A stretch of 35,790 nucleotides of DNA. Origin: Bacteroidaceae bacterium (lineage in GTDB: Bacteria > Bacteroidota > Bacteroidia > Bacteroidales > Bacteroidaceae). The position numbers were made by a program, and so were the translations under genes. The notes under the pieces were generated by a model, which did no database searches, was not told where the DNA came from, and worked only from the letters and a program-made list of their open reading frames with translations. The DNA is taken from positions 1-35,790 of the forward strand of contig JAFZIA010000056.1 of the NCBI GenBank assembly GCA_017554605.1, in the 5' to 3' direction. Shown piece after piece: positions 16,137-35,031 of this stretch. Each line of letters begins with the position of its first letter. Within the stretch, counting starts at the first letter, position 1.

Positions 16137-16167
16137 TTGTATTTTTCAAATACACTTTTTATATTTG
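16137..16167 (+). promoter_or_regulatory. Main promoter of the Hsp70-like/SEDS-PBP locus
   Basis: TTG (16137-16139), a 20-bp spacer and TATATTTG (16160-16167) match the Bacteroidetes -33/-7 consensus exactly. The predicted leader to the ATG at 16298 is roughly 125 nt. This is the only strong promoter I find for the seven downstream genes. The surrounding stretch 16035-16297 holds no gene. Confidence 0.75.
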
Positions 16168-16297
16168 CAAGTTGACGCATTTTTCATCATTAAAACACAA
16201 ATCAAACTGCATTGCATAACCCAAATGCCTGTACACGATTTACAAAGAGAAAAAACACGACAACCATTAACACAGCAAATAACAAAAACACAATATT

Positions 16298-19200
16298 ATG
16301 AAAAAAGCAATTACAGCCATCAGCGAACAGGGGCAAATCCAAAAAGATTACTGCCGAAATGCAAACAACAGAATAAGAAACACTTTTAAGTGGAAAATAG
16401 ACGTAACCGACACAAAATTCTTTAGTGATTCTGACAAAGGCACATATATACTACAGATACGCACTCTTGAAAATTGCGGAAATTACACATTCTCGATATG
16501 TGACATACAATCGACAAACGACTCAAAAATAAAAATCAACCCAGACAACACCATTGATATAAAAGGCGATGCATCTGTCGACTTCAAGGTTGTATGCGAA
16601 ATTGACGCAAATAAGATAAACAATCAGGAGACAAAATACGACATAATATTAAAAAAGGTCGGAACATCGGAATACGACACCATATCGGACGTATTCAGCT
16701 TTACCTTAACCACCCAAAAGGAGCTATGCAGAATATGCCAAAGTCCCCACAACCTGGGTATATGCCGAATAGAGCCCAAAGCAGTTGAATTCATTGGCAC
16801 AACTGCTGCCACGGACGTAGAGGTAGCCGACATTGTAATATCATCATTGCCAGATGCCACAGCTAACGACATTATAAGTATACAGTACAATCAGCCGAAT
16901 CACGACGTAGAGGTCAAGTATGGAAATGTATCTTGTGAATGTTACCTCTTTTTAGGAAGCACAAATGGAGAAACAGACATTCCTATTCCCACTGCGGGAG
17001 AAATACGCATACCCATTCGCGTGCAGCAATTGCCTACACCGAATATCAACACCCAAGAGCTGACAATTTCGGCCGATATACAATATACCTCTTGTCGACA
17101 CAATGCTGAATATCACACAATAACAGCAACAGTCCCCTATAGAATATCGACTAAAGTCAATGCATTGAAATTGACGATAGACGACCCTGCCGAAATTGAG
17201 AAAAAAGATGTGACAAACATCAACGAGGACAAAAAGAAAGTGACAATAACACCCCCGGCAACATACACAATAGACCTAAACATCGAGAATGAAGCACTGC
17301 AGGCCGTGGGAGCAGACTGTGGCATACACGTCCGCAACATCAAGAGAACCGTACTCAACTCCCAGGATTTGACAGGCCGTTTTGAAAATGCCGCATTTGA
17401 CCCTGCAAATGAGTGGAACTTATCAAGCAACAACACATATATCGTACACAGTGTAAACAAAGGAATTGCCACTTTAGACAAAGATAGTGAAGCCTTGCCC
17501 AATACTCAAAATGTAAATCACATTGCTATTCCTTTGCTTATCGATTCGGAGGCAATAAAGAACATTGTAATAAAAGACCATAACAGAACAGCCGATGTAA
17601 AAATAAAGGTTGAGTTCGATTACAAAGTAGACCAATTGGCAATTGACAACGTCAACAACAGTATAATAGCCGCAGAAAACAATAATGACGGATACATTCA
17701 TCACGAATTCCACTTCACCTTGATACTGGAAAGAAGCCATATAACAGAATGGCACGCACTGGACTTTGGAACATCGGCTGTGGTAAATATAAAATCGGGA
17801 AACAATTGGCATACGCAGTCTACAACAAACCTAAAATCGAAAAAAGGAAAACTGTTGGCAGAAATATACCCAATAAAGGAAGAGGAGGCCAAGAGAAATG
17901 ACACAGGCGAAGAAGATGCTCCCAACCTTATTGCCTCTACCTTGTACATTAACCCGGCGGCTGATACAACAGCACAGGCCGAAGGAGCTCAGCAATACAT
18001 TAACAGCAGGCTATGGTTCTCGCCCTCGACAGGTATGGTAAACCCTGGCAACAGGCTTCCTTGCGTAAAGAATATGATTGGTAACCGGGTGCTACCCCCA
18101 ATCCCAGGAGTAGACTGTAACGGATTGGACGTGGAACAGGTGGTAAGCACAGCATACGAACAGTTGTGCAAGTACTATCTTAATGATGAGAATATAGAAG
18201 GTCTTATATTAACAGTGCCAAACTCTTTCACTCCATTACACATCAACAGAATACGCAAAATTGTAATGAACCAGATAAGCAGTTTGTCAAAAGACACATT
18301 GGATTTTGTAAGCGAGAGCGATGCCGTATTGTGGTCATATATCAAAAAGACTCGACAAACATTGCCTGCATTCAAACAAGACCTCACGAATCTGAACCAA
18401 CAGAACAAGGAATATATCCTTATATTTGATATGGGTGCTGGTACATTGGATATCACGTATGCCGAGTGTACCGACGAAATTGTCAATGGAAAGTTCAAGT
18501 GCAGTATAGACATAAAGTCGAGAATTGGAGTAAGTAAAGCCGGAAACTACATCGACTATCTGATAGGAGAGATTATACTCAAGATTATGGGTAACAAGGG
18601 AATAACACCAGCACAATGGAACAGATACGCAAGAACCCTGTCAATCACGGGTGACGCCGACCATAGAGAGAAGAAAGACCTGAGAGAGTATTTGCGTAAC
18701 AAAGTAAAAGTTATGCTTGGCAACCCCGAGATGACACTACCTCCCGTTAACCCCAACGCAAACGACGGAGAGAGATACAAACTCTTCAACGACTGCGACA
18801 GCTACGAGATTCTTGGCAAGATAAAGGTAAAAGAGATTCTCGAGGACCAGCTGTTCCAGGATTTCATAGAGAGCTGTACGCGCAAGCTGATGCAAGAACT
18901 GGCCCTAAAACAAGGCAGTACAGATTTTGACCCCAACAGACAAGTATCCAAATTCCTTTTGGATACAGTCATTCTGTCGGGTAGAACAACTTCGCTTCCG
19001 GCAATAAGCCAGTCGCTGAAAGAGAGTTTTAACGAATACAGCACACCCAACTACAATTTCCACCTTAAAAATACGATAAGTAGTAGATTGCAGGAAATAA
19101 ATGCTATTAATGATATTCTATATTTGGAATCGGCTACAAACGATAGGAAAACTGTAGTAGCACGTGGAGCACTCGATTATGTGCAATTAATCAACCACTG

Positions 19201-19639
19201 TAACGGATATGAAATCACAAGCAAGAAAAGGATATACGGTTGCTATGGTCTCTTGTATAAGTTCGGTGATCAAGTAGTAGATTGGAAACCATTAGTGAGC
19301 GAGGAAAACTATATGCAGGACGGCATACACGACGTTGCAACCAACACATATAGCAACGAGATAATTGTCAACACTGATGAAAAAAACGAAATTCTCCTCT
19401 GCCACACATACAACAGCAATCCAATGGAGGCTGCTACCTCAGGCAACTACGATTCGATAACAATTTTGCGCGAAGACACAGTAGAGGGTGTCAGCAACAT
19501 TAGAATAAGTATTGAAATTAACGACGAGCGTGAAATAAACTACAAATTCAAGGGACAAACGCTCATTTTGCAACCGCACGACGAGTATACAAACGAAGCA
19601 CTGCGAAAGAGTTTGTGGCCCGTTGTTTATAGAAATTAA
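16298..19639 (+). CDS. Hsp70/actin-fold ATPase with large N-terminal beta-rich region
   Basis: This 1113-aa protein has no signal peptide or membrane segment. Residues 1-480 look beta-rich, like several immunoglobulin-type sandwiches, with a Cys/His cluster C144-x2-C147-x3-H151-x4-C156 that could bind a metal. An Hsp70-like ATPase domain follows: phosphate-1 LDFGTSAV (Asp489, Gly491), the segment LTVPNSFTPLHINRI that parallels the TVPA-x-F region of DnaK, SESDAVLW near the EP.AA site, phosphate-2 IFDMGAGTLDI (Asp711) and adenosine motif LSGRTTSLP (894-902). About 110 beta-rich residues end the protein. A canonical Hsp70 substrate lid is not evident. It is first in the locus, and a second Hsp70-like gene lies two genes downstream. 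The fold is well supported; the function is unknown. Arg codons are mostly AGA. Confidence 0.8.
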   Translation: MKKAITAISEQGQIQKDYCRNANNRIRNTFKWKIDVTDTKFFSDSDKGTYILQIRTLENCGNYTFSICDIQSTNDSKIKINPDNTIDIKGDASVDFKVVCEIDANKINNQETKYDIILKKVGTSEYDTISDVFSFTLTTQKELCRICQSPHNLGICRIEPKAVEFIGTTAATDVEVADIVISSLPDATANDIISIQYNQPNHDVEVKYGNVSCECYLFLGSTNGETDIPIPTAGEIRIPIRVQQLPTPNINTQELTISADIQYTSCRHNAEYHTITATVPYRISTKVNALKLTIDDPAEIEKKDVTNINEDKKKVTITPPATYTIDLNIENEALQAVGADCGIHVRNIKRTVLNSQDLTGRFENAAFDPANEWNLSSNNTYIVHSVNKGIATLDKDSEALPNTQNVNHIAIPLLIDSEAIKNIVIKDHNRTADVKIKVEFDYKVDQLAIDNVNNSIIAAENNNDGYIHHEFHFTLILERSHITEWHALDFGTSAVVNIKSGNNWHTQSTTNLKSKKGKLLAEIYPIKEEEAKRNDTGEEDAPNLIASTLYINPAADTTAQAEGAQQYINSRLWFSPSTGMVNPGNRLPCVKNMIGNRVLPPIPGVDCNGLDVEQVVSTAYEQLCKYYLNDENIEGLILTVPNSFTPLHINRIRKIVMNQISSLSKDTLDFVSESDAVLWSYIKKTRQTLPAFKQDLTNLNQQNKEYILIFDMGAGTLDITYAECTDEIVNGKFKCSIDIKSRIGVSKAGNYIDYLIGEIILKIMGNKGITPAQWNRYARTLSITGDADHREKKDLREYLRNKVKVMLGNPEMTLPPVNPNANDGERYKLFNDCDSYEILGKIKVKEILEDQLFQDFIESCTRKLMQELALKQGSTDFDPNRQVSKFLLDTVILSGRTTSLPAISQSLKESFNEYSTPNYNFHLKNTISSRLQEINAINDILYLESATNDRKTVVARGALDYVQLINHCNGYEITSKKRIYGCYGLLYKFGDQVVDWKPLVSEENYMQDGIHDVATNTYSNEIIVNTDEKNEILLCHTYNSNPMEAATSGNYDSITILREDTVEGVSNIRISIEINDEREINYKFKGQTLILQPHDEYTNEALRKSLWPVVYRN

Positions 19640-19985
19640 AGACAAGCCACGTCTATCTATAAGAATTGCAGTATAAACGGTGTATTTGTTTTTATGCTCC
19701 ACTGATAGGGAGCATAAAAACAAATACAGGTAATGTAACGGCAAGGTTTGTTCAGAAGCAGTTTTATTTATATCGCCAAGTTTTTATAGAGCAAATATAG
19801 GGTGTTTATTTATTTTTAAGGGCGCATAGTAGGCTATGTAACCGTAATAAATAAATATCTTATATAAAACACAATCTTTTTCTTTTTTAAAGCGAACAAA
19901 TATTTTACAACCAAGTTACTGCAAATAAGCGAAATACCATAGTTATACCATTGGTATATAACAACAAATTATAATTTATATAATT
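19640..19985 (+). other. Non-coding gap with hairpins and a small palindrome
   Basis: No gene is seen in these 346 bp. They hold a perfect 20-bp stem-loop (19681-19728), an imperfect A/T-rich inverted repeat around a CATAG/CTATG core (about 19805-19856) and an ATACCA/TGGTAT palindrome at 19944-19956 with a further ATACCAT just upstream. I see no confident plus-strand promoter. Confidence 0.6.
19681..19728 (+). terminator. Perfect 20-bp stem-loop after the first Hsp70-like gene
   Basis: The arms at 19681-19700 and 19709-19728 are exact complements around an 8-nt loop (ACTGATAG). The right arm is A-rich and no T-run follows, so it could be a partial terminator, an RNA-stability structure or a processing site that sets the ratio of the upstream and downstream proteins. 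Confidence 0.6.
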
Positions 19986-21782
19986 ATGTGCCTTAAATCA
20001 TTTTTTAATAAGATTATGAGTTCCAAAAACAAGAATACAACAGACGCAAGCGGTGCGTTAATTAGTACTGTCGAGCTTGAAAAAGTTATTCAAGAAACTA
20101 TGCAAAATACGTTGAAAGAGATATTGCCAAAAGTATTGGTCGATTATTTTGCACAAAACAACAATAGCGAAGAGTGCGACAGTGCACAAATACTCCAGGA
20201 TATAACGGGCTATATAACAAGTATAAAAAGGAAATTGAGTGAAGTAAACGATGAAATCTCTAAATTCAAGAAAACAGAAGAAACCTTGAATAAAGGAATT
20301 GAAGACAGAGACAATAGCATTCAAGCGCTGAAGGCTATAATCGATACTCTTAAAGTAGCAGAAACATACAAAAGCGCAAAAGAAACACAGGAAAGCCGAA
20401 TAAAAGATCTCGAGCAACAGCAGATAAATAATGAAGGCACTATAAAAAAACTGGAAGAAAGTATTGCACCACTCAACCAAGAGTTACAGGCGGAACAACA
20501 GAAAAATTCGAATCTCGAGCAAGAGAAGAAAGAGAAAGAAGAGACTATAAACAAGCAAAGAGAGGAATTGGAGCAACAAAAGGAAAAGCACCAAAATGAA
20601 ATTTCTGTACTCCAAAAAAAGATTGATGATCTTGAAAATCAAAGCCAAGATTACATTAAAAAGATTGAAGCATCGCAAACAGAGAATGCTCAGCTCAAGC
20701 AGGAACAAACCAATCATCAGAGCGAGATAAATACACGCGATACACAAATTAATGAACTCAAGCAACAGTTACTTGGGAAAGAACAGGAAATAGGTGAGCT
20801 TAATGGAGAAATTACATCACTCAACCAACAGTTGCTTGGGAAACGACAGGAAATAGATAAGCTTAGTGGAGAAATTGCACCGCTCGAACAACAGCTACAG
20901 GAATATCGACAGAGTATAAATGAGCTTAATGCACAGATTGCACAATACTCGCAACAGCACACAACCGACTGCAATACCATTGAACTGCAAAAGAAAGAGA
21001 TTGAAGAGCTTGAGAACATCAACAAGAACTCTGTAGAGATTGTCAACAGCCATAAGGCCAAAATCACGGAGCTGAACAACGAAATAGACGAACTCAACAA
21101 CAGTGTAGACTCGCTATACAACGACCTTCAGGCAGCAATTCAGCACAACACCACTCTACAAACACAGAACTCGACGCTTGCAAATGAAAATGAGAGCTTG
21201 CGCAATGAGATAAAAAATATGATAATGCCCATTTACAACAGGATAGACTCAAGCATAGAGCAACTCTACCAAAATGTAAATGCATATCACACAAGCGACG
21301 ATACAATATACAACAATGCGAGCGACATTAAACAAGGATTCGAAAAACTGTATTCACTAATTGAACGTGTGATAGAGGGCAACGAACCCGATAAAAAAAC
21401 AATCATACGCAACGAACTTATAGCCAAACTAACCTCGAACAGTTGGGTAAACATAATCATAAGACTGAATGCCTATACTAAGATTGCATCATTCAAAGTT
21501 ACACAGATTGTAAAGAATGACATTGCATATTTAGGTATGCTCATAACAGACCTGTACAAATCATACAATATAGATATTATTGTACCCGAACTGCTAAAAG
21601 AGGAGTTCAACAGCGAAAAGCAGGAATACGGCAATAACGAAACAACCTGGATAGCTTTCTTGTGCGATGTAAAACCGGCAGAGCATCGTGGCAAGATATA
21701 CGACATTATAAGAGCCGGATATACAATACACAACAACGACGGAACACAGGAACATCATAAACCAATAGTTTACTATTACTGA
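19986..21782 (+). CDS. Long coiled-coil protein with GrpE-like C-terminal end
   Basis: This 598-aa protein is dominated by a heptad-rich coiled coil from about residue 50 to 410, rich in Gln, Glu, Lys and Leu, with a tandem 21-residue repeat at 258-320. The last 170 residues form a separate domain. The extreme C-terminus (GKIYDIIRAGYTIHNNDG, then KPIVYYY) resembles the end of GrpE, where a GY-containing strand and a final P-x-V-x-V strand form the beta wing that contacts DnaK. Together with the flanking Hsp70-like genes, this suggests a nucleotide-exchange factor or scaffold. That reading is inference from a short pattern. ATG at 19986 is taken as the start; an in-frame ATG at 20016 is an alternative. 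There is no membrane segment. Confidence 0.7.
   Translation: MCLKSFFNKIMSSKNKNTTDASGALISTVELEKVIQETMQNTLKEILPKVLVDYFAQNNNSEECDSAQILQDITGYITSIKRKLSEVNDEISKFKKTEETLNKGIEDRDNSIQALKAIIDTLKVAETYKSAKETQESRIKDLEQQQINNEGTIKKLEESIAPLNQELQAEQQKNSNLEQEKKEKEETINKQREELEQQKEKHQNEISVLQKKIDDLENQSQDYIKKIEASQTENAQLKQEQTNHQSEINTRDTQINELKQQLLGKEQEIGELNGEITSLNQQLLGKRQEIDKLSGEIAPLEQQLQEYRQSINELNAQIAQYSQQHTTDCNTIELQKKEIEELENINKNSVEIVNSHKAKITELNNEIDELNNSVDSLYNDLQAAIQHNTTLQTQNSTLANENESLRNEIKNMIMPIYNRIDSSIEQLYQNVNAYHTSDDTIYNNASDIKQGFEKLYSLIERVIEGNEPDKKTIIRNELIAKLTSNSWVNIIIRLNAYTKIASFKVTQIVKNDIAYLGMLITDLYKSYNIDIIVPELLKEEFNSEKQEYGNNETTWIAFLCDVKPAEHRGKIYDIIRAGYTIHNNDGTQEHHKPIVYYY
20757..20945 (+). repeat. Three 63-bp (21-residue) coiled-coil repeats
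   Basis: Three consecutive units of 21 residues (three heptads) begin LKQQLLGKEQEI, LNQQLLGKRQEI and LEQQLQEYRQSI. The first two are also close at DNA level, which indicates recent in-frame duplication that lengthens the rod. Confidence 0.75.
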
Positions 21783-22102
21783 TAAACTGCTTTCCCGATA
21801 GAAAAACAGACAATTCAATCGCACTTGTATGCCCAAAAGCATACAGGAGCGATTGAGTTTAGAAAGACCTTAAGAGGCTATTTACTGTTATCACGTGAGC
21901 GTCAATAGCTATACAATTATCAAGAAATGATAGAAACCGACAGGTAAACCACATCTCTATTACAGACAGCAAATGACTCAAGCACTCGTAAAAGCAAGGG
22001 CAACAGCTTGAAACAAAGTAGCATTTTGTGGAGCCGACCGCCATAATTTTATCGTAGACCAAAAGATTGAAACAATTTTAATAACACAAATAAAGAGAAA
22101 AT
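21783..22102 (+). other. Non-coding gap with a long stem-loop
   Basis: No gene or clear promoter is seen in these 320 bp apart from the stem-loop listed separately. Short open frames on either strand lack family resemblance. Confidence 0.55.
21816..21855 (+). terminator. 17-bp stem-loop after the coiled-coil gene
   Basis: Arms at 21816-21832 and 21839-21855 pair over 17 positions, with one mismatch and one pair that is wobble in one transcript direction, around a 6-nt loop. Weaker pairing extends outward for about four more bases. The T-run after it is short, so it may attenuate rather than fully stop transcription into the second Hsp70-like gene. Confidence 0.5.
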
Positions 22103-24832
22103 ATGATACTACTTCCTATTAATATCGACAACAAATACGACCATCTGATTGACTTCGAGAGCCAACGCAAAGTGAATGATTCGTTTATCATAAAGAGTAA
22201 CGGACAGGGCTCCATCTTCGATTTTTATCACAAATTCGAAATCAACCATAATATAAATGTTGGCAATACAAATATTCCCCAATTGGGAGGAATCCTGCTT
22301 ATATCGGGAAGTAGCAAACAAAACAAATTTCTTCACATAAACGCAATAAACACAGAACAAATAGGGGATAATAAATACAACGTATATATAACCCTAAGCG
22401 AACAACAACAGGGACAAGGCGTAACAAATGATGGCGATGCAATAAAATACAACAACCTCTCTCTCACTTATAATAACATTGACACTGCAACCACTGTATC
22501 CGTCACATTCGAGTACGCAGGTAAGACCAAATGCGTGATATTCCATTTGGTACCGGCCAACCAGATATGGAAAGCCGTCATTGACAGCGGTTCCGAATCG
22601 ACACAGATAAAGGTATTCTCCCCTACAGGAGAGGGAAACAGAATTGACATAGCCTCTTATATTTGGGGATTAAGTGGTATTAAAGAGAATGATATATCGA
22701 ATTATCTCAAGAACAATAACGATATTATCCAAGTTGAAAAGAGAGGGAATAATTTCAACAGAACCTTATACAAATCAACATATTACATTAAAAAAGCGAT
22801 ACGCGACAATGACATTGCTCCTGAGTCTCTTGTTCCTCAAAGATGCGGACAGACTTACAACGACCCTATAAGAATGTTTACACTCTCGTCGGACTTTACA
22901 GATGCCAATTTCAAGAACAGCTATGTAAAACTGGGCAACCTTAAGATAGCATCTTTCGGCGGTGTTGAATTGCCCAATATAATGCTCAACGGCCATTCTG
23001 TTCCAGCAGACAAGGTGGGCGACAATTATTATTACAGAAAGTATATGGGCGAGTTCTGCTATCATATACTCGACTACATTAAGACAGCCGCTAAAGCGAA
23101 TGACACCCCCAAATATCTGTCGCTCTATGTGCTTGTACCCAATGTTTACAGTGTACAGAAAATACGCAAGAACCTCGACTGCATAATAGAGGCAATGGAG
23201 AGTATCTTGGCTCAACAAGAGAATAAATATATCAGCGGTTTCAGTATAACAGCAGTATCGGAAAGCGATGCCTCTCTCATTGGAAGCATAGGCCAATTAA
23301 ACGAAAAGCCGACCAACAGCAACTGCTTGATAATGGATGCCGGTAAGGGTACACTCGATTTCAGCCTTGTCAACATTGACGAGCAGGACAAATTTACAAA
23401 TATCTCAAAAAATGGTATAATCGGTGCTGCCGCAGCCATCAACTACGGATTCATACTCGACCTGCTGTGTGCCTACTACAAAGAAATAGGTATTACGTTA
23501 AGCAAAGATGAGCTCAAAGAAAAGATTGAAAATGGTATTTTAGGAAGAGGCAATAGCGCCGTATCAGGAGCTGGAGCAGGAGCTGGAGCAGGAGACGTTG
23601 CGCTACTGAATAAGCTTATGAACGCTGTTGACAATTACAAGATTAGATACAGCACATTGCAGCCTGCAAACGACACGCATATCACCACCGTCTCAAATGC
23701 TCAGGACAACAGTTTTTCGCTCGCGGCATTTACACAATGGATAGAGAAAAATAACAACAAGATTCCCGATAATTATGTCAAGGGAATAATTAATGAGATT
23801 GTAGGAAACTGTATCGATAAAATAGATAAATCGACAAAAATAAACGAAACAGAAATAAACTACGTACTGTACGCAGGACGCGGTTTCTTGTACAAAGACT
23901 TCAAAAAGGCTATGCACAAAGCCCTCAAAGAGCAATACTCTGCAATAAAGGAGATACAGATGAGCAATGCTCCGTTTGATACAGACCTGCTAAAGACAAT
24001 GTGCCTTGATATTGCCTCGGTGATAGATGAGGGAAGATATAATCCCTACAGTTTTCCCGAAGAACAACCGGTAACAGAAGACAATCAAAGCAATTTTATA
24101 ACTGCAATAAAAAATTTCTTACCTTCAAGTATAAAAGATATTTTTGGTCTTAATGACAACGATGGTATGAAACCTAAAAAGGTCGTAAATGAACCAAGAA
24201 AAAATTACAAGGAAATAAAAATCAAAGTTCTACCCAACAGTAAGTTGCAAATTGGAGCGACATATTACGATTTGAGAAATTTTGCCGAAGGAGATGCGTC
24301 GCTGTTCATAAGCAACGAGAACGTTTATCTGCGTGACAGCCAAGGAAATGTTAGGATTATTACAGAAATTCAAAGCAACGACAGAGTAAACGCATTGGTT
24401 TTCCCATCATTGTTCCCCGACGTAAATGCGCAGACAGCAATATATATGCCCAATCCAGTAATTGCAACAAAGCCCGTCAATAACAGCACAGTCAACAGCG
24501 GCACTACACAGCCCGTGAACAACAGCGGCACTACACAGCCCGTGAACAACAGCAGTGCTACACAGCCAGCGAACAACAGCGGTGCTACACAGCCCGTGAA
24601 CAACAGCGGCACTACACAGCCAGCGAACAACAGCGGTGCTACACAGCCAGCGAATAATAGCGGTGCTACACAGCCCGTGAACAACAGCGGCACTACACAG
24701 CCCGTGAACAACAGCGGTGCTACACAGCCTGCGAACAACAGCGGCACTACACAGCCAGCGAATAATAGCGGCACAAAGAAGAATGTAGGTAATAATGATT
24801 TCAGTGACCTTGATGACTTTTTCGGCAACTAA
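22103..24832 (+). CDS. Second, divergent Hsp70-like ATPase with repeat tail
   Basis: This 909-aa protein has no signal peptide or membrane segment. A beta-rich N-terminal domain (about 1-150) is followed by an Hsp70/actin-fold domain: phosphate-1 VIDSGSEST (Asp161, Gly163), LYVLVPNVYSVQKIRKNL matching the DnaK VPA segment, phosphate-2 LIMDAGKGTLDF (Asp412) and adenosine motif VLYAGRGFLYKDF (588-600). A Gly-Ala run (GAGAGAGAG) from a 12-bp duplication lies inside the ATPase region. A beta-rich segment (about 705-785) leads to ten nine-residue repeats and a terminal acidic-aromatic motif, NNDFSDLDDFFGN. The tail layout recalls the linker plus hub-binding peptide of FtsZ or SSB. It shares the order beta domain then ATPase with the 1113-aa protein, yet the two are very divergent. 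The fold is well supported; the function is unknown. Confidence 0.78.
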   Translation: MILLPINIDNKYDHLIDFESQRKVNDSFIIKSNGQGSIFDFYHKFEINHNINVGNTNIPQLGGILLISGSSKQNKFLHINAINTEQIGDNKYNVYITLSEQQQGQGVTNDGDAIKYNNLSLTYNNIDTATTVSVTFEYAGKTKCVIFHLVPANQIWKAVIDSGSESTQIKVFSPTGEGNRIDIASYIWGLSGIKENDISNYLKNNNDIIQVEKRGNNFNRTLYKSTYYIKKAIRDNDIAPESLVPQRCGQTYNDPIRMFTLSSDFTDANFKNSYVKLGNLKIASFGGVELPNIMLNGHSVPADKVGDNYYYRKYMGEFCYHILDYIKTAAKANDTPKYLSLYVLVPNVYSVQKIRKNLDCIIEAMESILAQQENKYISGFSITAVSESDASLIGSIGQLNEKPTNSNCLIMDAGKGTLDFSLVNIDEQDKFTNISKNGIIGAAAAINYGFILDLLCAYYKEIGITLSKDELKEKIENGILGRGNSAVSGAGAGAGAGDVALLNKLMNAVDNYKIRYSTLQPANDTHITTVSNAQDNSFSLAAFTQWIEKNNNKIPDNYVKGIINEIVGNCIDKIDKSTKINETEINYVLYAGRGFLYKDFKKAMHKALKEQYSAIKEIQMSNAPFDTDLLKTMCLDIASVIDEGRYNPYSFPEEQPVTEDNQSNFITAIKNFLPSSIKDIFGLNDNDGMKPKKVVNEPRKNYKEIKIKVLPNSKLQIGATYYDLRNFAEGDASLFISNENVYLRDSQGNVRIITEIQSNDRVNALVFPSLFPDVNAQTAIYMPNPVIATKPVNNSTVNSGTTQPVNNSGTTQPVNNSSATQPANNSGATQPVNNSGTTQPANNSGATQPANNSGATQPVNNSGTTQPVNNSGATQPANNSGTTQPANNSGTKKNVGNNDFSDLDDFFGN
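23567..23590 (+). repeat. Tandem 12-bp repeat encoding Gly-Ala
   Basis: Two exact copies of GGAGCTGGAGCA stand in tandem and are followed by GGAG. The insertion is in frame and lies in a loop of the ATPase domain between the second phosphate motif and the adenosine motif. Confidence 0.8.
24500..24769 (+). repeat. Ten 27-bp repeats encoding G[T/A]TQP[V/A]NNS
   Basis: Ten consecutive 27-bp units encode a nine-residue Thr-Gln-Pro-Asn-Asn-Ser-Gly repeat, with alternation at two positions (Thr/Ala and Val/Ala). The repeat number is likely to vary between strains without shifting the frame. The product is a flexible linker before the conserved-looking C-terminal peptide. Confidence 0.95.
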
Positions 24833-24858
24833 TAAACCGTAATAAAACTTGCATTCCA

Positions 24859-24886
24859 CGATAATAGAGAACACCCTCTGTTATCG
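24859..24886 (+). other. Intercistronic 11-bp hairpin
   Basis: Arms CGATAATAGAG (24859-24869) and CTCTGTTATCG (24876-24886) pair with one wobble position around a 6-nt loop, 31 bp before the next start codon. It may stabilise or process the transcript; it lacks a T-run. Confidence 0.5.
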
Positions 24887-24916
24887 ACACAACAACACTA
24901 CTAAAAAAGAAGAAAT

Positions 24917-25555: not shown

Positions 25556-25585
25556 ACAACACACATACGTCAACATATTGAACTT

Positions 25586-26359
25586 ATGGAAAATATATTT
25601 ATAATATTTGCAATAGGCATAATAGGCTCATTAGCTGCTGTCATCGCTTTCTACGATTTCTATCTTATCCCCGGGAAAACAAAGCAGATAAACGCCTCGT
25701 CGGACAACAGAAGCAATGATATTGAAAAGTTGGAGAACGAACTAAGCGCGCTTCAGAACGAGAACAAACGACTTAACGAAGAGATTGACAATAACAATAT
25801 TCTAAAGTACAAGAAGTATGCCGAGATATACGACAAGCTCGTAAACAGAATATACACTCTCGATTTGCAGCATTCGGCAAACAAAGAATCGACAAAAAAC
25901 TTCGATAACTTATTGAAAGAGTTCATCTTTATAAAAAAAGACGAAAAAAGGAGTGCTTACGAAAATTATTCGGTCTGCATTATATCGGGAATGGAAGCGT
26001 ACAACATTTCGTACAAGCTGGGACTGAAATTAAAAGAAGTTTTGTTGCCCATTATAAACAAGCCACTTCCGCTAAGCGATTACGATAAGAAAGAATGTCT
26101 CGAAAAGATACTCGACCTGTCGATGATATGTTTCGATACCGTTACAACCGCATTCAACAATAGGAATGCACGCGAAAGACAACATCTGAATGTTCATTTA
26201 CTTAACGGACAAGACCGAAGCCAATTGCTCGATAAAGCCGAGCCTATGACAGACAGGAGCGACTTGACCCCCTTGTGGATACGTATAATAAAGAAGAGTG
26301 TTGAATCATTCGGAATAAAACGCTCAAACACCATTTTCTCGGGATATAAACTATCTTAA
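25586..26359 (+). CDS. Membrane-anchored coiled-coil protein, copy B
   Basis: This 257-aa protein has an N-terminal membrane helix (about 3-27, ending FYDFYLIPGK), a short coiled coil (about 45-72, LENELSALQNENKRL) and a helical domain like that of copy A. It also has an extra tail of about 60 residues, basic near its end. Paralogy with copy A is visible but weak, so the duplication is old and the two probably play distinct roles. The start of the giant membrane-protein gene lies 11 bp downstream, implying co-translation. No known family is recognised. The orientation of the helix (short N-terminus outside or inside) cannot be fixed from sequence. Confidence 0.7.
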   Translation: MENIFIIFAIGIIGSLAAVIAFYDFYLIPGKTKQINASSDNRSNDIEKLENELSALQNENKRLNEEIDNNNILKYKKYAEIYDKLVNRIYTLDLQHSANKESTKNFDNLLKEFIFIKKDEKRSAYENYSVCIISGMEAYNISYKLGLKLKEVLLPIINKPLPLSDYDKKECLEKILDLSMICFDTVTTAFNNRNARERQHLNVHLLNGQDRSQLLDKAEPMTDRSDLTPLWIRIIKKSVESFGIKRSNTIFSGYKLS

Positions 26360-26370
26360 CAAAAATAATT

Positions 26371-29300
26371 ATGAAAGACGCAAAAAACAACATATTTACT
26401 GTAATAAGAAGACTGATAGCAATCATACTTGTTATTATACCAATATTCTTGTGGATAGCATCGCCTTTGAACTTTACTACATTGGGACTTATAGCTCTTG
26501 CAGCCATACTTCTTCCCACATTAACAAGAAGGCCGCACCTGTTCCTCGACAAGAAAGAACTGAACAACTTTTTCGGATTAGGAGGAACCGGTACATATAT
26601 CCCATTCATCAGGAACAATACGCAAGGAACATTAGCAATAATATTCCTTGCGATATATTCTGTAATAACAGTCTCCACTCTGAATAACTATTTCTATGCC
26701 GACGAGAATATATACACGAACAACCAGCACCATATTCTTCGCCTTGATAGCATAACTATAAAGAACACAAAGAATTTTGTGCTCGCAGGAAGCGACGACA
26801 ATGCACTCTTCGACAACAAAGGGTACAATGGCAAAATAACTATTGACTCGTACGACGAAAAATCGGTACGACTGAAATTGAACAATTTCAGTCAACCAGT
26901 GTATAAATATCGGAAAGTTTCAAAAGATAAGAGGTCATTCCTCAATAAGGATAAAGAAATACGTAGGGACACTATTCTGAATAGCAATCTACTGTCATTC
27001 AGAGCTGGCGTTATAGATACCCCCAATAAACAGGAGGAAATTACACCAGATTCACTTGTATTCACAAACAATAATGGCGACAAAGTATATTTCTGGATTA
27101 CCGAATGCAATATAGATAAAGGATTTTTCAGTAGTTTCAAGGAAAACACCGATACTGCGGTGTATCACTTCAGTATATACCGAAATGGCAATAATACCCC
27201 GCAGCAAATCACTTCCAAAACAACTTTTATATGTAAAGAGGGATTGGGCTTGAACTATCTGCTCGATGGTGTAACAGCCGACGGATTTAACTTCGACGGC
27301 GTCAACATTGCACGTTGCGCGACACACCAACAGAGCAACCGCGACGAGCGCTCCGATGGTGCAAGAACAAGATATGCATTGTCGTTGGACAGTATTGTAT
27401 ACAGAAAAACCAACGACAATAATGCCATTGCAAGCATTGCAAGCATTACACACAAAAATATCGTCAGCGACACTACGATATATAAATTAGATTACATTTA
27501 TAACGACTCCATAACATTAAATTTATACGAACTGAAGAACGAAAAAAAAGTACCTATAGAGATAATGATTGGATACGGTGTCAACAAGACTGCACCATTC
27601 TATTTCTCGTTCAACAACGACACCAGTCTGAACATTGTGTTCAAGGAGCCAGTCTCTCACCAGCTTCATAGCAACAACTCCAACAAGACAAACACACTCT
27701 ATGTAACCTCGTCATTAATAAAGGACACAGAGAATGCAAGTAATAAAGAGAAAGAATTTGGCATAAATGTGCCCAATAATATCCTGTTGTTCAACATATT
27801 GAACAGAAGAGACAATGCCAACCGCTTTACACCTTTCAATCTCTCCTTTGTACCCGGCCATACTACCGACAGCCTGATACTGCTATGCAACTACAAGGAT
27901 AAAGTATTTGAAAAGAGAGTAAACGAGAACATAAGCATTAGCACTCTTGGCAACGAGAATGTTGTTTGGAATTTCTCTATGGCAAATCTGCGAGAAGAGA
28001 CAAGAACAGCCACTATTATCGGTCCTTTTAAAATTCCCATAAAACCGCACGCACTGCTATGGGTGGTATTTGCCGTTGCACTGTTGGCTATAGCTTCGAT
28101 GGCTATGCAGGTGGGCTTCAGCTACCAAAAGGAGACATTCCACAGAAACACTTTCAATTATGTTGAATACATAATGTACGTGGTGCTTATTTTCCTTGTG
28201 GCAATGCGTTGCTTCATTGTATGGCGTACAATGGTATTCCGTCCGGTGGAAGACATCTCGCAAATCGAGCTCAATGATATAATATACCAGACAACCGCCT
28301 TCAGGGCATTTATATGCGGTATCATTATGTTCTTCGGCATTATATTCCTGCTGAAACTGTACATATATTGCTCGCATAAAATGATATTCCACAATAACAG
28401 CTATACAACCTATTACGGCGACATCAGCATAAAGCTCACCCCCGCTGAGGAACTTGCATTGAGAGCTTCGAGCGACAGCATATACAACAAAATTCACAAC
28501 TTGTTGTACAAGATATTGTTATGCGAAACTGCAATCGACAACGACGAGGGTATATTGACAAGACTGGTTACAGCTGCACTGGAGAAGATGCATCTTGACA
28601 AGATGCTGAATATTTATCTAAAGACAAGAGATATTTTAAAATCTTTGTTCCGAGAATTCCGAAGCCTCAGTTTCGGATTTAAGTTCTCACTGGTTTGGGT
28701 CATAATGGCACTTTTGTCCGTAGCAATATCCAACCCACGATTCATAATTGTTATGCTGGTAATATCATATTTCTATATAGATATGGTGATATATGCCAAC
28801 AACAAATACAACAGCTATAAAGCCGAAGAGGTAGACAACAAAGAAGGTGAGATAATTGTATCGTCACTACTCTACTCTCTATTGAATATGATTATTACAA
28901 TGGGATTGATGTTTGTCTTCACCCACGACACAGGCTTTGTGATTATGTTTGCGACATTCTCCCTGGCATCGATGTTACTTAAAGTACTGGAGTTATACAC
29001 AAAAATGTTCCGCAGCATCGGAAGCAGCCTGTTCAATATATATCTTGTGCTTATGCCCATCATAATTGTAGTCATATTCACATTATATAAGGAGATTGTC
29101 ATTGACGTGATATTCGACAGCTACCTGATATTTTGGATTGCCGTTATATTGACAGTACTCTTATGGTTGATTCTGCGTAGTTCTTATATCACTTCTGGCT
29201 CTTCGCAAAACGCCAATAACACCCTGCTGAAGAAAGTGCTACACTTTTTAGTGGGAAAAACAGACTGGAACATAAAGGATATACTACTGATTATTGTGCT

Positions 29301-32300
29301 TCCAGTTGTACTTATAGTTACGCTTGCGCTCTACAAGGACGCTATCGAATATTTCATAAATTTCATTTTATTGTTTGCTGTAGTTGGCTTGTTGCTGTTC
29401 GCATATTTCAAGTGGGAAGCATTCAAATATACAATGAAATACTTCTTTAATATCAAGCGAATTATATTCAGCATTGTTGTTGCAACATTCACAGCAGGAA
29501 TAATTTTCATCATTGAGGACAAATCACCGGCCGACAGTCTGGGCCGCCACACCCTGCAACGTATAAACGTACAGGTTTACAACGATGAGCCGCACAAGGC
29601 GCTTGCCCTTACCGAGACATCGGGCGACGAGATACGCTTCCTGCAAGCATCGCATAACCACTGGATAATAGAACAGTATTACAATAGAGGAAGAGAGATA
29701 AACGCTGCCAACAGCAACGGTTACTTCAGGCTTCAGCCACAGAGCAAAGTGGGTGCAATGTGGAATGCCCAGCTCACCGACATTGTGCTGCTGAGATATG
29801 TCATTGCCGAACACGGAACATTCCTTCCTATACTCATTATAGCGTTGTTCCTCGTTATGCTGTATTATGGTCTGAAGAAAACAACATACTACCGTTTCAC
29901 CAAATCGATACTTACACAGATACCGTTGCTCATTCTGGTTCAAGCAGTATTGGTGTGGCTGGCAAACACACAGCGCTTCGTATTCTTCGGTCAGGACTTC
30001 CCTATGCTGTCAATAACATCGAGTGCAATGGTCATATACTTCCTGGCATTGACCGCAATATGGGTATGCGCAGCTATCATTGAATCGATAATGTGCCGAG
30101 CATATAAGGAAGAGGACGAATACGGCACTCTTAACACATTCAACAAAAAGACAAGTATCAGATTCTGCTCTTATCTTATCTTTGCTGTAATTTTGTTGAT
30201 CATTGTTAAACAAATAAGACAGATTAGTAACAACGACAACCGCTACAGTATGAGCGAGCTGTTCAATATGACCGACAGCTACGTAACCCACATCGACAGT
30301 TCGTTTGTAAATTATCAAGAAGCCGAGAAATCACTTTACAATAAGTCACTAAAAAAGAAACCTATAAAATACGACAAGAAGAATTTTGTAAGCTACAAGA
30401 ATAACAGTGCCGAATTCGTACTGAACAGCAATATGCACTCGGTAATAAACGACTTCAACAACAATTACAAGATTACCGATACTATAAACATCGACAACAA
30501 CTATACAGGGCTGTTGTTGAGAGCTCGTGCCATATCAAACAAGAGTGAATTCTTGAATGCAATAGATTCGGCGTTCAAATACAGCAACTCATCACTTGCA
30601 GAAAGACAAAAGAGCTTCTTTAATATTTTCAATGCTTTAAAATCGGATAATGACACCACTTACACTGTTGTCCATTACCCCGATACGATAAACACCAATT
30701 CGGTTGTCATCAAATTTAATGGAGAGGAGCAGGTTAATTACGCCTACCACATACACAATGACACCATTATCAAGACAATAAAGGATTCTGTTTTAAATAA
30801 AAAAACAAACAAATTTACCGACTATTATAGAAAGGAAAAAGTTGCACTCAACAACATCGTAGAACAAGTATCGGTTGAAGCCTCCATTATGAGAATTCCT
30901 TTGAATTCCATTATCAGAGCCAATGATATAAGTGCTCAAGCACTTCATATATTCGACTCAATAGCAGACACGAGGGAATATAAATATATGCAACGCATTT
31001 GGAGGAAATATGTAGAGAGCGGTTCATCGGTCAACTCATACGGCGGATTGTTGCACATTCACAAAGTAGGTTCAAACCTAAGAATTGCAATGCGCGACAC
31101 ATACTACGATGTAACTCTTCCCAACCACAACAGGGACGAGTGGAAAGGAAGCATCGTGGAGCACTATGAGCCATACAAGCTGTCTGATACTCTGATACGT
31201 AGAGGTACAAAGCAATACACCTACTACCAACTGCCAAGATCGTGGATAAGAGAAAGAGAGACACCGCATATACTTAATGTAAAAGACGACAGTTTAAGAA
31301 TCTTCTCGCTCGACAACAACGAAATTGTGCAAACAGAGAATAGCGGCATTGAGTCGATCCTTGCACTGTACAAAGATGATATTGTGAAGTTCGGCAAAGA
31401 TGTACTGAATGGCGACAGCCTGCCGGTAGATGTACGCAAGTATTGGGCACGCAACATTCTTGTAAACGGAAGACAGAGCTTCATATACCCCCAGGGAAAA
31501 TCACTCTTCTGGATATGGCACTTTGCCAATGCCGTCAAGGGACAAAAAGACAGAAAGCTACGCGAAAGTGCTGGCAGCCAAAACGAGCAAGAATTGTATG
31601 CCGATGTAGCTATTACACTCGACAGCAAGCTGACCGACAGCGTTCGCCGTATACTTGACAACAAAATAAAGAAAGCATATAAAATATTAGGTAAAAAATT
31701 AGGTGATAGTATTAATAAAGCAGTAAAAGAAACCCCCAATCATTATCGTCTTAAAGACCAAATGGATAACAAACTTTTGGCATTCTCTGTAATTATAGCA
31801 GACGATAACGGTCATATACACGCAATGGTAGATGCAAAAGATAGTACATATAACATCAATCCGAACGATCACAAACAGATTGGTGAGCTCAACGAAATGT
31901 TCTATATGAACTTTGCAGGAAACAGAAACGAACAAGAGAGGTATTATATAGACAATATGAACCTTACACATATGAGGGGAGGACCTGGTTCTACCCAAAA
32001 ACCTCTTATGTGGACAGCTGTTGCTTCGAGAATTAAAGACTTGAAGTGGAATTCGCTAGATCTTAAACACAAAAACAATTTAAGAAGGAAAGAAAGAGGC
32101 TATTACATATTACCACAATATAACGGTGCAGAAATGTTAAATATGGAAATATTGCAATCGGACGAATGGATAACATGTGACAAAAATGGAATAAAAGTTA
32201 CTGACAAGAATGCAGAATATATGGACCTCACAAACTTCCTATCAAGATCCAGCAATTACTATAACGCAATGATGGTTTACTTTGGATTACAACCCGACAG

Positions 32301-33546
32301 TTGTTATAGGAACAACAAATTTATTAATCTAAATACTGTCAGTGTGAACAGAACTCAGAACTATTTGTTCAAGAAGGCATTACCCGAAAGTGAATGGAAT
32401 AAAGAATATTATAATGACAACTATCCTTTTATCCAGCATAATCATAATGAAAAAGAGATACTTACATTTAACAGACAGATTAAGCTTGAGGATTATACAA
32501 ACAGCGTACTATACAAACAATTCATCGAAAATTATGGTCTAAGAGCCAATTTCTCACCGATTGATACAACATATCTCGACAATAATGGCAACAAGAGAAA
32601 ATCAACCATCAGAAGATATGCCAAGAATTTGTATAAAGAATATTTCTCTATTGAGAACAATAATTCGACATTCAGTTTACCCGAGTTATCAATTCTTAAT
32701 TTGAGAGGATATTACGAGGAGATGACCGACAGTCTTAATTATCACCGAAAAGGCGAAAAAACAAATGACAAAGATACTATAAATGAAACCAATGGCAGAT
32801 ATGCAAACAACGGTATGCGCAATATAACAGTTGGAGGTAAGCAGATGTGGATTGTAACTCCGTATGAAATGGCGCAGATGTACGGTAAGATGTTTACGTT
32901 GAATACAAACTATGCATTGACACTCGACCCCAATACTGTATTGTTCGACAAGAACGATATAAACATAGGTAGGGACAAGAACGATAAAGATACTGTAGAC
33001 AACAAAAATTTCTACGAGGCATTACCCATTGCATTCAACAGTATGAACCTGTTCTTTACACACGGAACAGGAAGAACTGGAAAGGAAATAGGTATCCTGA
33101 ATTTCGGAGATGGTGATCAGTCTACTTATGTGTACGACGGAAAAAGAAAAGGAAACAAAAACGGAAAAGGAAAAGGAAAAGGAAACAAAAACGGAAAAGG
33201 AAACGAAAACGAAAAAGGAAAAGTAAACGAAAAAACCTACTATCTGTATGGAAAAACAGGAACATCAAATGAGGACAAAATATTCAAAGGCGAAAAAACC
33301 AAAAATGAGTTCCGCCGATTGGCTATTATCATATCTGATACAAAATTGCATAACGAAGTAAAGAATGGTTCTTATAGCGAAGTCGACACTGCCGAAGTTA
33401 AGAAAAATGCCAAGAAAGCAAAATTCTTTGTGCTATACTTCACATTAGACTATGATGCAAGCTTGCTAAATGAAATTGCAAGAGAAGTTATAGAAGAGGT
33501 AATACACTCCGAGGCATTCCAGAATTATATGAAACCCAAAAATTGA
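26371..33546 (+). CDS. Giant SEDS glycosyltransferase-class B PBP fusion protein
   Basis: This 2391-aa protein has about 19 membrane helices by eye. Three lie in 15-105. A beta-rich extracytoplasmic domain (106-555) follows, then three helices (560-668), a cytoplasmic stretch (670-770), twelve more helices (770-1233) and one at 1264-1283. The last ten of the block ending at 1233 fit RodA/FtsW topology. The large external loop holds QRINVQVYNDEP (family RRI...DP) and AQLTDIVLLRYVIAEHG (family HTDFIFAVLAEELG) with catalytic-type Asp1137; FFGQDFPMLSITSS stands for the usual P.SYGGSS. After 1264 comes a class B PBP: LYADVAITLDS, DDNGHIHAMV, SxxK Ser1874-Lys1877 (GPGSTQKP), SxN 1960-1962 (RSSNYYNA), VTPYEMAQMYG and KTGT 2295-2298. 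A Lys/Gly-rich tract (2257-2286) precedes KTG. Expected roles are glycan polymerisation and cross-linking. Confidence 0.82.
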   Translation: MKDAKNNIFTVIRRLIAIILVIIPIFLWIASPLNFTTLGLIALAAILLPTLTRRPHLFLDKKELNNFFGLGGTGTYIPFIRNNTQGTLAIIFLAIYSVITVSTLNNYFYADENIYTNNQHHILRLDSITIKNTKNFVLAGSDDNALFDNKGYNGKITIDSYDEKSVRLKLNNFSQPVYKYRKVSKDKRSFLNKDKEIRRDTILNSNLLSFRAGVIDTPNKQEEITPDSLVFTNNNGDKVYFWITECNIDKGFFSSFKENTDTAVYHFSIYRNGNNTPQQITSKTTFICKEGLGLNYLLDGVTADGFNFDGVNIARCATHQQSNRDERSDGARTRYALSLDSIVYRKTNDNNAIASIASITHKNIVSDTTIYKLDYIYNDSITLNLYELKNEKKVPIEIMIGYGVNKTAPFYFSFNNDTSLNIVFKEPVSHQLHSNNSNKTNTLYVTSSLIKDTENASNKEKEFGINVPNNILLFNILNRRDNANRFTPFNLSFVPGHTTDSLILLCNYKDKVFEKRVNENISISTLGNENVVWNFSMANLREETRTATIIGPFKIPIKPHALLWVVFAVALLAIASMAMQVGFSYQKETFHRNTFNYVEYIMYVVLIFLVAMRCFIVWRTMVFRPVEDISQIELNDIIYQTTAFRAFICGIIMFFGIIFLLKLYIYCSHKMIFHNNSYTTYYGDISIKLTPAEELALRASSDSIYNKIHNLLYKILLCETAIDNDEGILTRLVTAALEKMHLDKMLNIYLKTRDILKSLFREFRSLSFGFKFSLVWVIMALLSVAISNPRFIIVMLVISYFYIDMVIYANNKYNSYKAEEVDNKEGEIIVSSLLYSLLNMIITMGLMFVFTHDTGFVIMFATFSLASMLLKVLELYTKMFRSIGSSLFNIYLVLMPIIIVVIFTLYKEIVIDVIFDSYLIFWIAVILTVLLWLILRSSYITSGSSQNANNTLLKKVLHFLVGKTDWNIKDILLIIVLPVVLIVTLALYKDAIEYFINFILLFAVVGLLLFAYFKWEAFKYTMKYFFNIKRIIFSIVVATFTAGIIFIIEDKSPADSLGRHTLQRINVQVYNDEPHKALALTETSGDEIRFLQASHNHWIIEQYYNRGREINAANSNGYFRLQPQSKVGAMWNAQLTDIVLLRYVIAEHGTFLPILIIALFLVMLYYGLKKTTYYRFTKSILTQIPLLILVQAVLVWLANTQRFVFFGQDFPMLSITSSAMVIYFLALTAIWVCAAIIESIMCRAYKEEDEYGTLNTFNKKTSIRFCSYLIFAVILLIIVKQIRQISNNDNRYSMSELFNMTDSYVTHIDSSFVNYQEAEKSLYNKSLKKKPIKYDKKNFVSYKNNSAEFVLNSNMHSVINDFNNNYKITDTINIDNNYTGLLLRARAISNKSEFLNAIDSAFKYSNSSLAERQKSFFNIFNALKSDNDTTYTVVHYPDTINTNSVVIKFNGEEQVNYAYHIHNDTIIKTIKDSVLNKKTNKFTDYYRKEKVALNNIVEQVSVEASIMRIPLNSIIRANDISAQALHIFDSIADTREYKYMQRIWRKYVESGSSVNSYGGLLHIHKVGSNLRIAMRDTYYDVTLPNHNRDEWKGSIVEHYEPYKLSDTLIRRGTKQYTYYQLPRSWIRERETPHILNVKDDSLRIFSLDNNEIVQTENSGIESILALYKDDIVKFGKDVLNGDSLPVDVRKYWARNILVNGRQSFIYPQGKSLFWIWHFANAVKGQKDRKLRESAGSQNEQELYADVAITLDSKLTDSVRRILDNKIKKAYKILGKKLGDSINKAVKETPNHYRLKDQMDNKLLAFSVIIADDNGHIHAMVDAKDSTYNINPNDHKQIGELNEMFYMNFAGNRNEQERYYIDNMNLTHMRGGPGSTQKPLMWTAVASRIKDLKWNSLDLKHKNNLRRKERGYYILPQYNGAEMLNMEILQSDEWITCDKNGIKVTDKNAEYMDLTNFLSRSSNYYNAMMVYFGLQPDSCYRNNKFINLNTVSVNRTQNYLFKKALPESEWNKEYYNDNYPFIQHNHNEKEILTFNRQIKLEDYTNSVLYKQFIENYGLRANFSPIDTTYLDNNGNKRKSTIRRYAKNLYKEYFSIENNNSTFSLPELSILNLRGYYEEMTDSLNYHRKGEKTNDKDTINETNGRYANNGMRNITVGGKQMWIVTPYEMAQMYGKMFTLNTNYALTLDPNTVLFDKNDINIGRDKNDKDTVDNKNFYEALPIAFNSMNLFFTHGTGRTGKEIGILNFGDGDQSTYVYDGKRKGNKNGKGKGKGNKNGKGNENEKGKVNEKTYYLYGKTGTSNEDKIFKGEKTKNEFRRLAIIISDTKLHNEVKNGSYSEVDTAEVKKNAKKAKFFVLYFTLDYDASLLNEIAREVIEEVIHSEAFQNYMKPKN
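33139..33231 (+). repeat. In-frame purine-rich repeat encoding Lys/Gly/Asn
   Basis: Imperfect 6-bp units (GGAAAA, GGAAAC, AAAAAC) encode a run of Lys, Gly and Asn close before the KTGT motif of the transpeptidase domain. The unit length keeps the frame when the copy number changes. The strong strand bias (almost no pyrimidines) makes slippage likely. Confidence 0.85.
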
Positions 33547-33554
33547 AACAGACA

Positions 33555-34106
33555 ATGAGAAAGTTTATAATATTAATGTTATTTGTTGCAGCCATATTCG
33601 CATCATTGGCTATAAATATACTTAACAGCAACGGGTACAACAAAGGTAAAATACCCGTAAAGGACGAGAGCAAATACTTTATACAAATAAAGGACAGAGT
33701 ATTTACCAAGGCAATCACAGAGGAGAATTCTGTTATAAAAGTAGTAAACAGTAGCAAATACAGGCTACAGTTGTGTGCGGCAAGCGATACAGCAAAATTC
33801 CTTGCAATCTTCTCGGACAAGGACAGTATGGCACAGAGAACCGTCGAGAAATTCAACGGACGAGGCTTCGAGTGGGTTGTCGGCGACAGCATACAAGGAA
33901 CGTACTTTTCTTTGCCACGCGAAAAATGTATGAACGATGCCAATGACTATGTGACAGTACCTGTGTGGCTCATTGCGAAACTGCTTGATGAAAAAATTAT
34001 AGACAAAGATTTCAAAATTATAGGCAATAACAATGAGGGATTTATTGAAAAGATAAAAAATTCGTGTATCGAATTTTGGGATTTAATAATCAATCTGTTC
34101 AATTGA
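33555..34106 (+). CDS. Small membrane-anchored extracytoplasmic protein
   Basis: This 183-aa protein has one N-terminal hydrophobic helix (about 4-24) after MRK, followed by a mixed alpha/beta domain with no recognised family. With the basic start inside, the body would face the periplasm, where it could meet the PBP domain encoded just upstream. I take the ATG at 33555, 8 bp after the stop of the giant gene; an in-frame TTG at 33543 overlapping that stop is an alternative. It ends the accessory transcription unit and is followed by a stem-loop terminator. Composition matches the locus. Confidence 0.7.
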   Translation: MRKFIILMLFVAAIFASLAINILNSNGYNKGKIPVKDESKYFIQIKDRVFTKAITEENSVIKVVNSSKYRLQLCAASDTAKFLAIFSDKDSMAQRTVEKFNGRGFEWVVGDSIQGTYFSLPREKCMNDANDYVTVPVWLIAKLLDEKIIDKDFKIIGNNNEGFIEKIKNSCIEFWDLIINLFN

Positions 34107-34143
34107 GAATAAGCTCATCTTCTCACAAAGAAAACGCAACCAA

Positions 34144-34188
34144 GCACCTTATGCTCCGTGTAAAAAACTTATAAGAAGCATAAGGTGC
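34144..34188 (+). terminator. Stem-loop at the end of the accessory locus
   Basis: A perfect 12-bp stem (GCACCTTATGCT at 34144-34155, AGCATAAGGTGC at 34177-34188) with a 21-nt loop lies 37 bp after the last stop codon and is followed by ATTATTTAT. It probably ends the long transcript. Confidence 0.65.
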
Positions 34189-35010: not shown

Positions 35011-35031
35011 CTGTTGACAAGCCACACGCAA

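Follow-up and report, generated by a model that had tools for sequence, protein, structure and literature searches.

The 35,790-base window analysed here, an entire contig within a 2.48-Mb assembly of a Bacteroidaceae bacterium, carries a locus that probably encodes an accessory peptidoglycan synthase complex, in which an ATPase would gate a fusion of a SEDS (shape, elongation, division and sporulation) protein and a class B penicillin-binding protein (bPBP). The core of this complex would comprise the products of three genes, C, E and F. As stated in a preliminary description of this DNA, seven open reading frames (ORFs), A–G, span 16298–34106 on the same (+) strand; an eighth gene, H, lies downstream and was absent from the earlier list. 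None of the A–G proteins exceeded a Pfam or NCBIfam cut-off in family scans of the window proteins. The genes are as follows:

16298–19639, + strand: gene A, 1113 aa, second Hsp70-like ATPase with an N-terminal region of ~480 aa
19986–21782, + strand: gene B, 598 aa, long coiled-coil protein whose C-terminal end (~200 aa) is common to locus L024 of the related genome G014
22103–24832, + strand: gene C, 909 aa, core ATPase of the Hsp70/actin fold that has beta regions at both its N and C termini
24917–25555, + strand: gene D, 212 aa, N-terminal transmembrane (TM) segment and coiled-coil-type sequence, an extra relative of E
25586–26359, + strand: gene E, 257 aa, core bitopic protein with a TM segment, a coiled coil and the C-terminal end ...GYKLS
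26371–33546, + strand: gene F, 2391 aa, SEDS–bPBP fusion with an N-terminal TM/extracytoplasmic module
33543–34106, + strand: gene G, 187 aa, one TM segment and a small, presumably extracytoplasmic part; overlaps the stop of F
34357–35010, + strand: gene H, putative membrane metallopeptidase with HETTH; best start 34357, the listed ORF opening at 34309

The association of C, E and F extends well beyond the window. A genus-level search of 44 genomes found F in two, that of the window and G014, whose copy (L024) keeps the order A-B-C-E-F-G-H with no separate D. A collection of 84,980 genomes scanned with two peptide patterns yielded 278 stretches, 31 of which encode an F relative, representing 30 loci. 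All but one of these (29/30) are titled Bacteroidota, with hosts including Taibaiella, Edaphocola, Emticicia, Chitinophagales, Saprospirales, Sphingobacteriales, Flavobacteriaceae and Bacteroidales, among others; the remaining one, L053, is titled only 'uncultured bacterium'. A profile search of the family of G077 found F in 12 of 117 genomes, some of which form a divergent clade, and seven loci from these 12 genomes were read, five of them new (L085–L089) and two (L090 and L091) repeating L034 and L037. The total is thus 36 F loci (the window, 30 and 5). Four (L026, L030, L046 and L049) begin at a contig edge with their upstream side unreadable, and linkage was counted in the other 32; L026 and L041, from one genome, probably each carry half of a single gene. 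C and an E-like gene adjoin F in all 32 readable loci, and in 31 the order is C-E-F on one strand, interrupted by D in the window and by a 273-aa gene in L025. The neighbourhood analysis of homologues that the preliminary description had proposed speaks for linkage of C, E and F.

In the phylum sample of 395 genomes used for the F and C searches, strong F and strong C matches occurred only in the genome of the window and in G077. Weak partial F matches were found in G101, G192 and G263 (2e-5 to 6e-4). Apparent independent C proteins in G294, G181 and G162 were rejected, as these weak matches carry DFGGGTLD motifs and belong to the ordinary Hsp70 type. Across 24 loci, the pairwise identities of C correlate with those of F at 0.98, a value that indicates shared history only, because the pairs are not independent. 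The second ATPase is far more restricted: of 31 loci searched, just the window and L024 yielded A and B, with a weak A match (7e-5) to the C of L041, and the genome of the window was the single one of 395 in the phylum sample to contain A. Of the two ATPases originally described, C is the one that accompanies F in the 32 readable loci.

With respect to the synthase itself, the predicted model of F contains the ten-helix SEDS fold, and the transpeptidase motifs of a PBP follow it. The corresponding features are:

28138–30096, + strand: SEDS-fold region of F, about residues 590–1242
29779–29781, + strand: codon of Asp1137, the counterpart of the conserved SEDS Asp in the alignment
31990–32001, + strand: SxxK motif (S1874, K1877) of the transpeptidase domain
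32248–32256, + strand: SxN motif (S1960–N1962)
33253–33264, + strand: KTGT motif (2295–2298)

D1137, which aligns with the canonical SEDS Asp in the large extracytoplasmic loop, is invariant in 27 of 27 F proteins, and SxxK, SxN and KTG occur in this order in 27 of 27 (counted in F proteins >1,600 aa, with cut-off or shorter ones left out). The transpeptidase family PF00905 was detected in 11 of 26 F members at E ≤ 0.1 (best 8e-8). When members were scanned singly, L031 reached 24.2 bits, above the cut-off of 22.1, and L050 (19.3), L024 (14.8) and L089 (11.8) fell below it. Profile comparison of F with 19 SEDS sequences was also successful. Taken together, the predicted SEDS-like fold and the PBP motifs agree with the SEDS–PBP fusion first proposed for F. 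In L089 (L089:5314-10671) F is split into a 595-aa ORF for the N-terminal module and a 1188-aa SEDS–PBP ORF, which shows the N-terminal part to be separable.

Both ATPases carry, by eye, the phosphate-1, phosphate-2 and adenosine-site motifs of the Hsp70/actin superfamily, those of A being DFGTSA, SESDA, DMGAGTLD and LSGR. A also matches the NCBIfam DnaK family at 0.005, below cut-off. The predicted model of C is Hsp70/MreB-like, with an Hsp70-type nucleotide-binding fold of the actin type at residues 154–650, so that two Hsp70/actin-fold ATPases, as previously noted, are indeed indicated by the motifs and, for C, by the model. C is not an MreB orthologue, PF06723 being detected in only 8 of 24 C proteins at E ≤ 0.1 (best 0.0072), and a separate strong MreB was present in 10 of 10 host genomes tested. 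The C-terminal tail of C in the window contains a 27-bp tandem repeat of about 10 copies (24493–24774) encoding QPVNNSGTT-like repeats; by eye, this tail was not seen in the homologues.

The Hsp70 character of C raises the alternative that C, together with A and B, acts as a chaperone devoted to the giant F, either folding or inserting it or protecting it during stress, and not as a dynamic regulator of F. The top structural matches of C are Hsp110 and Hsp70, A is paired with a coiled-coil protein, and F is very large, all of which would fit such a role. However, a clear substrate-binding domain was not found in C, where only a small low-confidence beta region (residues 705–755) occupies that part of the model, and no J-domain match was obtained in A–G. 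A membrane-anchored E-like gene accompanies C in all 32 loci, and the motif SESDA stands at the position of the EPTAA-type motif of Hsp70. On balance we regard a chaperone function as unlikely. The GrpE-like end attributed to B was not confirmed: no GrpE family was listed for the last 198 aa of B or the last 200 aa of its homologue (filters that may drop weak matches were applied), leaving a likeness seen by eye.

Returning to the proposed synthase complex, hydropathy analysis gives D and E one N-terminal TM segment each, followed by coiled-coil-type sequence, in keeping with their earlier designation as anchored coiled-coil proteins. E was identified by profile in 28 of the 32 loci. G has one TM segment by hydropathy and is, as suggested before, a small protein that we place outside the cytoplasm. 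The G profile of the window matches only L024 among the loci searched, and the ~150-aa genes in the place of G that, along with ~400-aa genes, follow F in many loci are therefore matches of place and size. For H, the window's own protein has no Pfam match; its relatives in L024, L025 and L052 match Peptidase_M50B at 9e-5 to 2e-4, below cut-off, and HExxH is present in 4 of 4 H homologues.

Several results weigh against the assignment of C, E and F to a common synthase complex. The window's own F has no Pfam match, PF00905 and PF01098 included; PF00905 gave no match in three of the seven members scanned singly (L030, L036 and L049), and PF01098 was not reported among the 26 F members at E ≤ 0.1. 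The F model is of low confidence (pLDDT 55, pTM 0.60), its Foldseek matches to FtsW/RodA have weak E-values of 0.1–0.2, the lowest E-value (0.048) belongs to a cytochrome oxidase subunit, an unrelated protein, and hhalign of the F profile with two SEDS sequences, unlike the comparison with 19, returned a probability of 0.5%. The C model is of moderate confidence (pLDDT 65.8, pTM 0.74). In L052, C and E point away from F, and the C of L032 scored higher with the A profile and was read as C from its place and alignment. As for E, that of L032 shows no TM segment at the hydropathy threshold used, the GY end is found in 22 of 32, the D/E profile also labels other proteins, and in L085–L088 E was identified from position and a TM segment alone. 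Beyond L024, the window's profile does not recognize G. PDB sequence searches were uninformative, the best rows for the F profile being rhodopsins, and a PF01098 search of the window's own genome listed other loci and not F. In terms of product, SEDS proteins belong to the same clan as O-antigen ligases and certain polysaccharide polymerases, as given in the available text of PMC10920833, and the glycosyltransferase half of F could on that account make another sugar-diphospholipid product. The missing PF01098 matches and the position of WaaL as the next fold after SEDS among the structural matches favor this alternative, which we nonetheless judge very unlikely.

Whatever its product, F appears to be an extra SEDS protein. 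Each of 10 host genomes tested has PF01098 proteins above cut-off at two places, taken as FtsW and RodA, in addition to the MreB mentioned above. This coexistence, together with the patchy spread of F and the lack of any A–H match at the window's site in congeners, would suit a backup synthase for stress or antibiotic exposure with the ATPase as sensor. Such a role, which is compatible with an accessory synthase, has a precedent in Enterococcus and Listeria, whose additional SEDS proteins have no Hsp70-like partner mentioned in the available portion of the source (PMC12724132). We consider it possible but doubtful; it and the chaperone role of C are the main alternatives for the locus.

For an ATPase-gated synthase, the following mechanism can be envisaged. 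F would reside in the inner membrane, where its SEDS half would polymerize lipid II and the fused bPBP half would crosslink the strands. C, in the cytoplasm, would dock onto the coiled coil and C-terminal end of E, and the bitopic E would relay the ATP-dependent state of C to F, thereby switching or placing the synthase. G would serve as a small extracytoplasmic subunit, and the additions in the lineage of the window would be A as a further ATPase, B as a coiled-coil protein and H as a membrane protease. The set would have been acquired horizontally and would act, perhaps conditionally, alongside the normal SEDS genes and MreB rather than replacing them. An ATP-driven module coupled through membrane tethers to a wall synthase had been suggested at the outset; of this picture, the linkage and the predicted folds are shown, and we infer the catalysis, the C–E–F contacts, the gating and the biological role.

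This arrangement invites comparison with the two standard synthases, both of which are directed by actin-fold ATPases: MreB with its membrane partners acts on RodA–PBP2, and FtsA on FtsW–FtsI. Like the Rod complex (MreB, RodZ, MreC, MreD, RodA and PBP2), the locus combines an actin-fold ATPase, bitopic proteins and a SEDS–bPBP pair. In contrast to it, SEDS and bPBP here are joined, together with an additional N-terminal module, in a single chain of 1,700–2,400 aa, which L089 divides between two ORFs. The ATPase carries extra beta regions and is closer in score to Hsp70, and the genes are clustered and patchy in hosts that have MreB besides. The divisome core (FtsA, FtsQLB/DivIC and FtsW–FtsI) likewise has an actin-fold protein, coiled-coil bitopic proteins and a SEDS–bPBP pair, whereas A–G lack any match over the Pfam or NCBIfam cut-offs to divisome families; the coiled coil of E has a weak DivIC match (1.6e-3, below cut-off).

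Natural SEDS–PBP fusions are in print, with the Rhodococcus RHA1 genome cited, and resemble F in placing SEDS and PBP in one ORF; the accessible text mentions no ATPase partner, a comparison of descriptions and not of sequences (PMC10449877). E. faecalis and L. monocytogenes likewise possess SEDS proteins extra to FtsW and RodA, but these associate with separate bPBPs, with no Hsp70-like gene mentioned in the part of the article available (PMC12724132). No published account of an Hsp70-like ATPase linked to a SEDS–PBP fusion was found in a search that covered few subscription papers or preprints. These comparisons suggest that what is new here is an ATPase-linked SEDS–bPBP machine pairing an Hsp70-like ATPase with a SEDS–PBP fusion. 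C-E-F may, though this is somewhat less likely than not, represent a third ATPase-directed wall-building machine in bacteria, the Rod complex and the divisome being the other two. It would then be a transferable cassette whose Hsp70-like nucleotide switch directly drives a single-chain SEDS–PBP. If so, it would be a minimal, genetically separable version of cytoskeleton-to-synthase signaling. The way in which an actin-fold ATPase in the cytoplasm controls a SEDS–bPBP synthase across the membrane is an open question, and a difficult one to study since the Rod complex and divisome have numerous parts, most of them essential as a rule. A similar logic seems here to be contained in three or four linked genes, with glycosyltransferase and transpeptidase in one chain, and in hosts that retain MreB and the canonical SEDS genes; cells lacking the locus should therefore be viable, and its parts could be rebuilt in vitro. 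The C–F pairing has been kept over great evolutionary distance in scattered Bacteroidota. The locus also suggests that a wall synthase can pass from genome to genome together with an ATPase of its own.

The genes flanking the loci bear on two further alternatives. Localized wall remodeling for an appendage, secretion or surface structure would account for the TM proteins with predicted extracytoplasmic parts that follow F in many loci, but no conserved appendage or secretion family appears among the best 25 of 78 Pfam families in 74 flanking proteins, and we hold this role to be improbable. An anti-phage or conflict system would fit the patchy distribution; in PADLOC, the candidate PDC-M61B was obtained with A (6e-6) and with 5 of 24 C proteins (best 4.7e-6), and L025 (L025:237-18839, Bacteroidales) has a DO-GTPase2-like protein upstream (0.0016, below cut-off) and BrxL downstream (5e-96). 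Some DO-GTPase/HSP70/GrpE conflict systems contain Hsp70 and GrpE and thus share with the locus an HSP70-family protein in a multi-gene accessory system, according to the available text of PMC7159879. The DO-GTPase core was not seen here apart from the weak match beside L025, and was not among the best 25 of 78 families in the flanking proteins (E ≤ 1e-8), where the listed families are mostly metabolic, regulatory and transport. The PDC-M61B match in A covers a 66-residue stretch at the phosphate-2 region. A defense island was considered and rejected: each PADLOC family among the best 25 of 39 matched at most one of the 74 flanking proteins, giving scattered single matches (BrxL, PDC-S02 and PD_DExK) in a scan made without control flanks. 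Defense is accordingly the most improbable of the roles considered.

In terms of spread within lineages, F occurs in 4 of 11 genomes of the Emticicia genus of G463. At the window's site, 16 congeners were examined, picked from 40 other genomes with a PyrB match. The genes to the left of the locus (pyrB, pyrI, g14670 and an outer-membrane protein gene) have the same order in all 16, and A–H were unmatched in the 7–10 kb read there. Twelve of the 16 have a serine-hydroxymethyltransferase-like gene (by eye) beyond the outer-membrane protein gene, and differing genes lie to its right in several (L098–L113), so this stretch may be a variable site. In G014 the locus is elsewhere in the genome. The window and G014 copies of A, B, C, E and F are 27–31% identical by BLAST (F 38% in global alignment), G 42% and H 53%, against 50% for FtsW, 70% for RodA and 91% for PyrB; separate gain, or gain followed by rapid change and relocation, would explain this pattern of site and identity. 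A quick F tree places the window and L024 as sisters (100), joined by L025 and L027 (95 and 96), and the program warns that long branches meet at this region. No match was obtained when Edaphocola C was searched in plasmids and F in phages, the converse searches (C against phages, F against plasmids) not having been made.

With respect to transcription, the predicted signals are:

16137–16167, + strand: promoter-like site TTG-N20-TATATTTG, upstream of A, from a pattern scan
34281–34311, + strand: promoter-like site TTG-N20-TATCTTTG, upstream of H, from a pattern scan
19681–19728, + strand: 20-bp perfect hairpin in the A–B gap, -28.8 kcal/mol, z -8.3
21812–21859, + strand: hairpin in the B–C gap, -27.3 kcal/mol, z -9.3
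34144–34188, + strand: closing hairpin after G (G–H gap), -22.5 kcal/mol, z -6.3

The site before A fits the Bacteroidetes -33/-7 consensus, and the next + strand match is that at 34281, before H. This is in line with the single promoter first described, although the pattern has 12 matches across the window (5 on the + and 7 on the - strand), so that any one is weak evidence. The closing hairpin was found where expected after G. Those in the A–B and B–C gaps are both stronger, and A, B and C–G may therefore be expressed unequally or separately; a transcript split in this way may also count against a joint complex. A single transcript can thus be proposed only tentatively for the window; in L024, A-B-C-E-F-G-H are tightly packed with gaps of 2–100 nt. 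The A–B and G–H hairpins have a common core, TTATGCTCC or TTTATGCTCC.

A patatin-like phospholipase gene (35014–35679; PF01734, 1.8e-26) lies directly 3′ of H and, being adjacent, may share its transcript. The right border of the locus lies beyond the contig, at whose end an ORF (35723–35790) begins MMTREEILSIEEYCAEHKVSHRK; we take it to be an insertion-sequence accessory gene from its appearance, and it may mark the right border of the acquired segment. Upstream of the G014 copy (L010:5999-11529) are a P-type cation ATPase and two similar 271-aa proteins, presumably TerD domains to judge by eye. In L027, a protein with an FHA domain (4e-7) and a TM stretch (L027:13960-14739) directly follows the gene in the place of G and is a possible phospho-signal reader.

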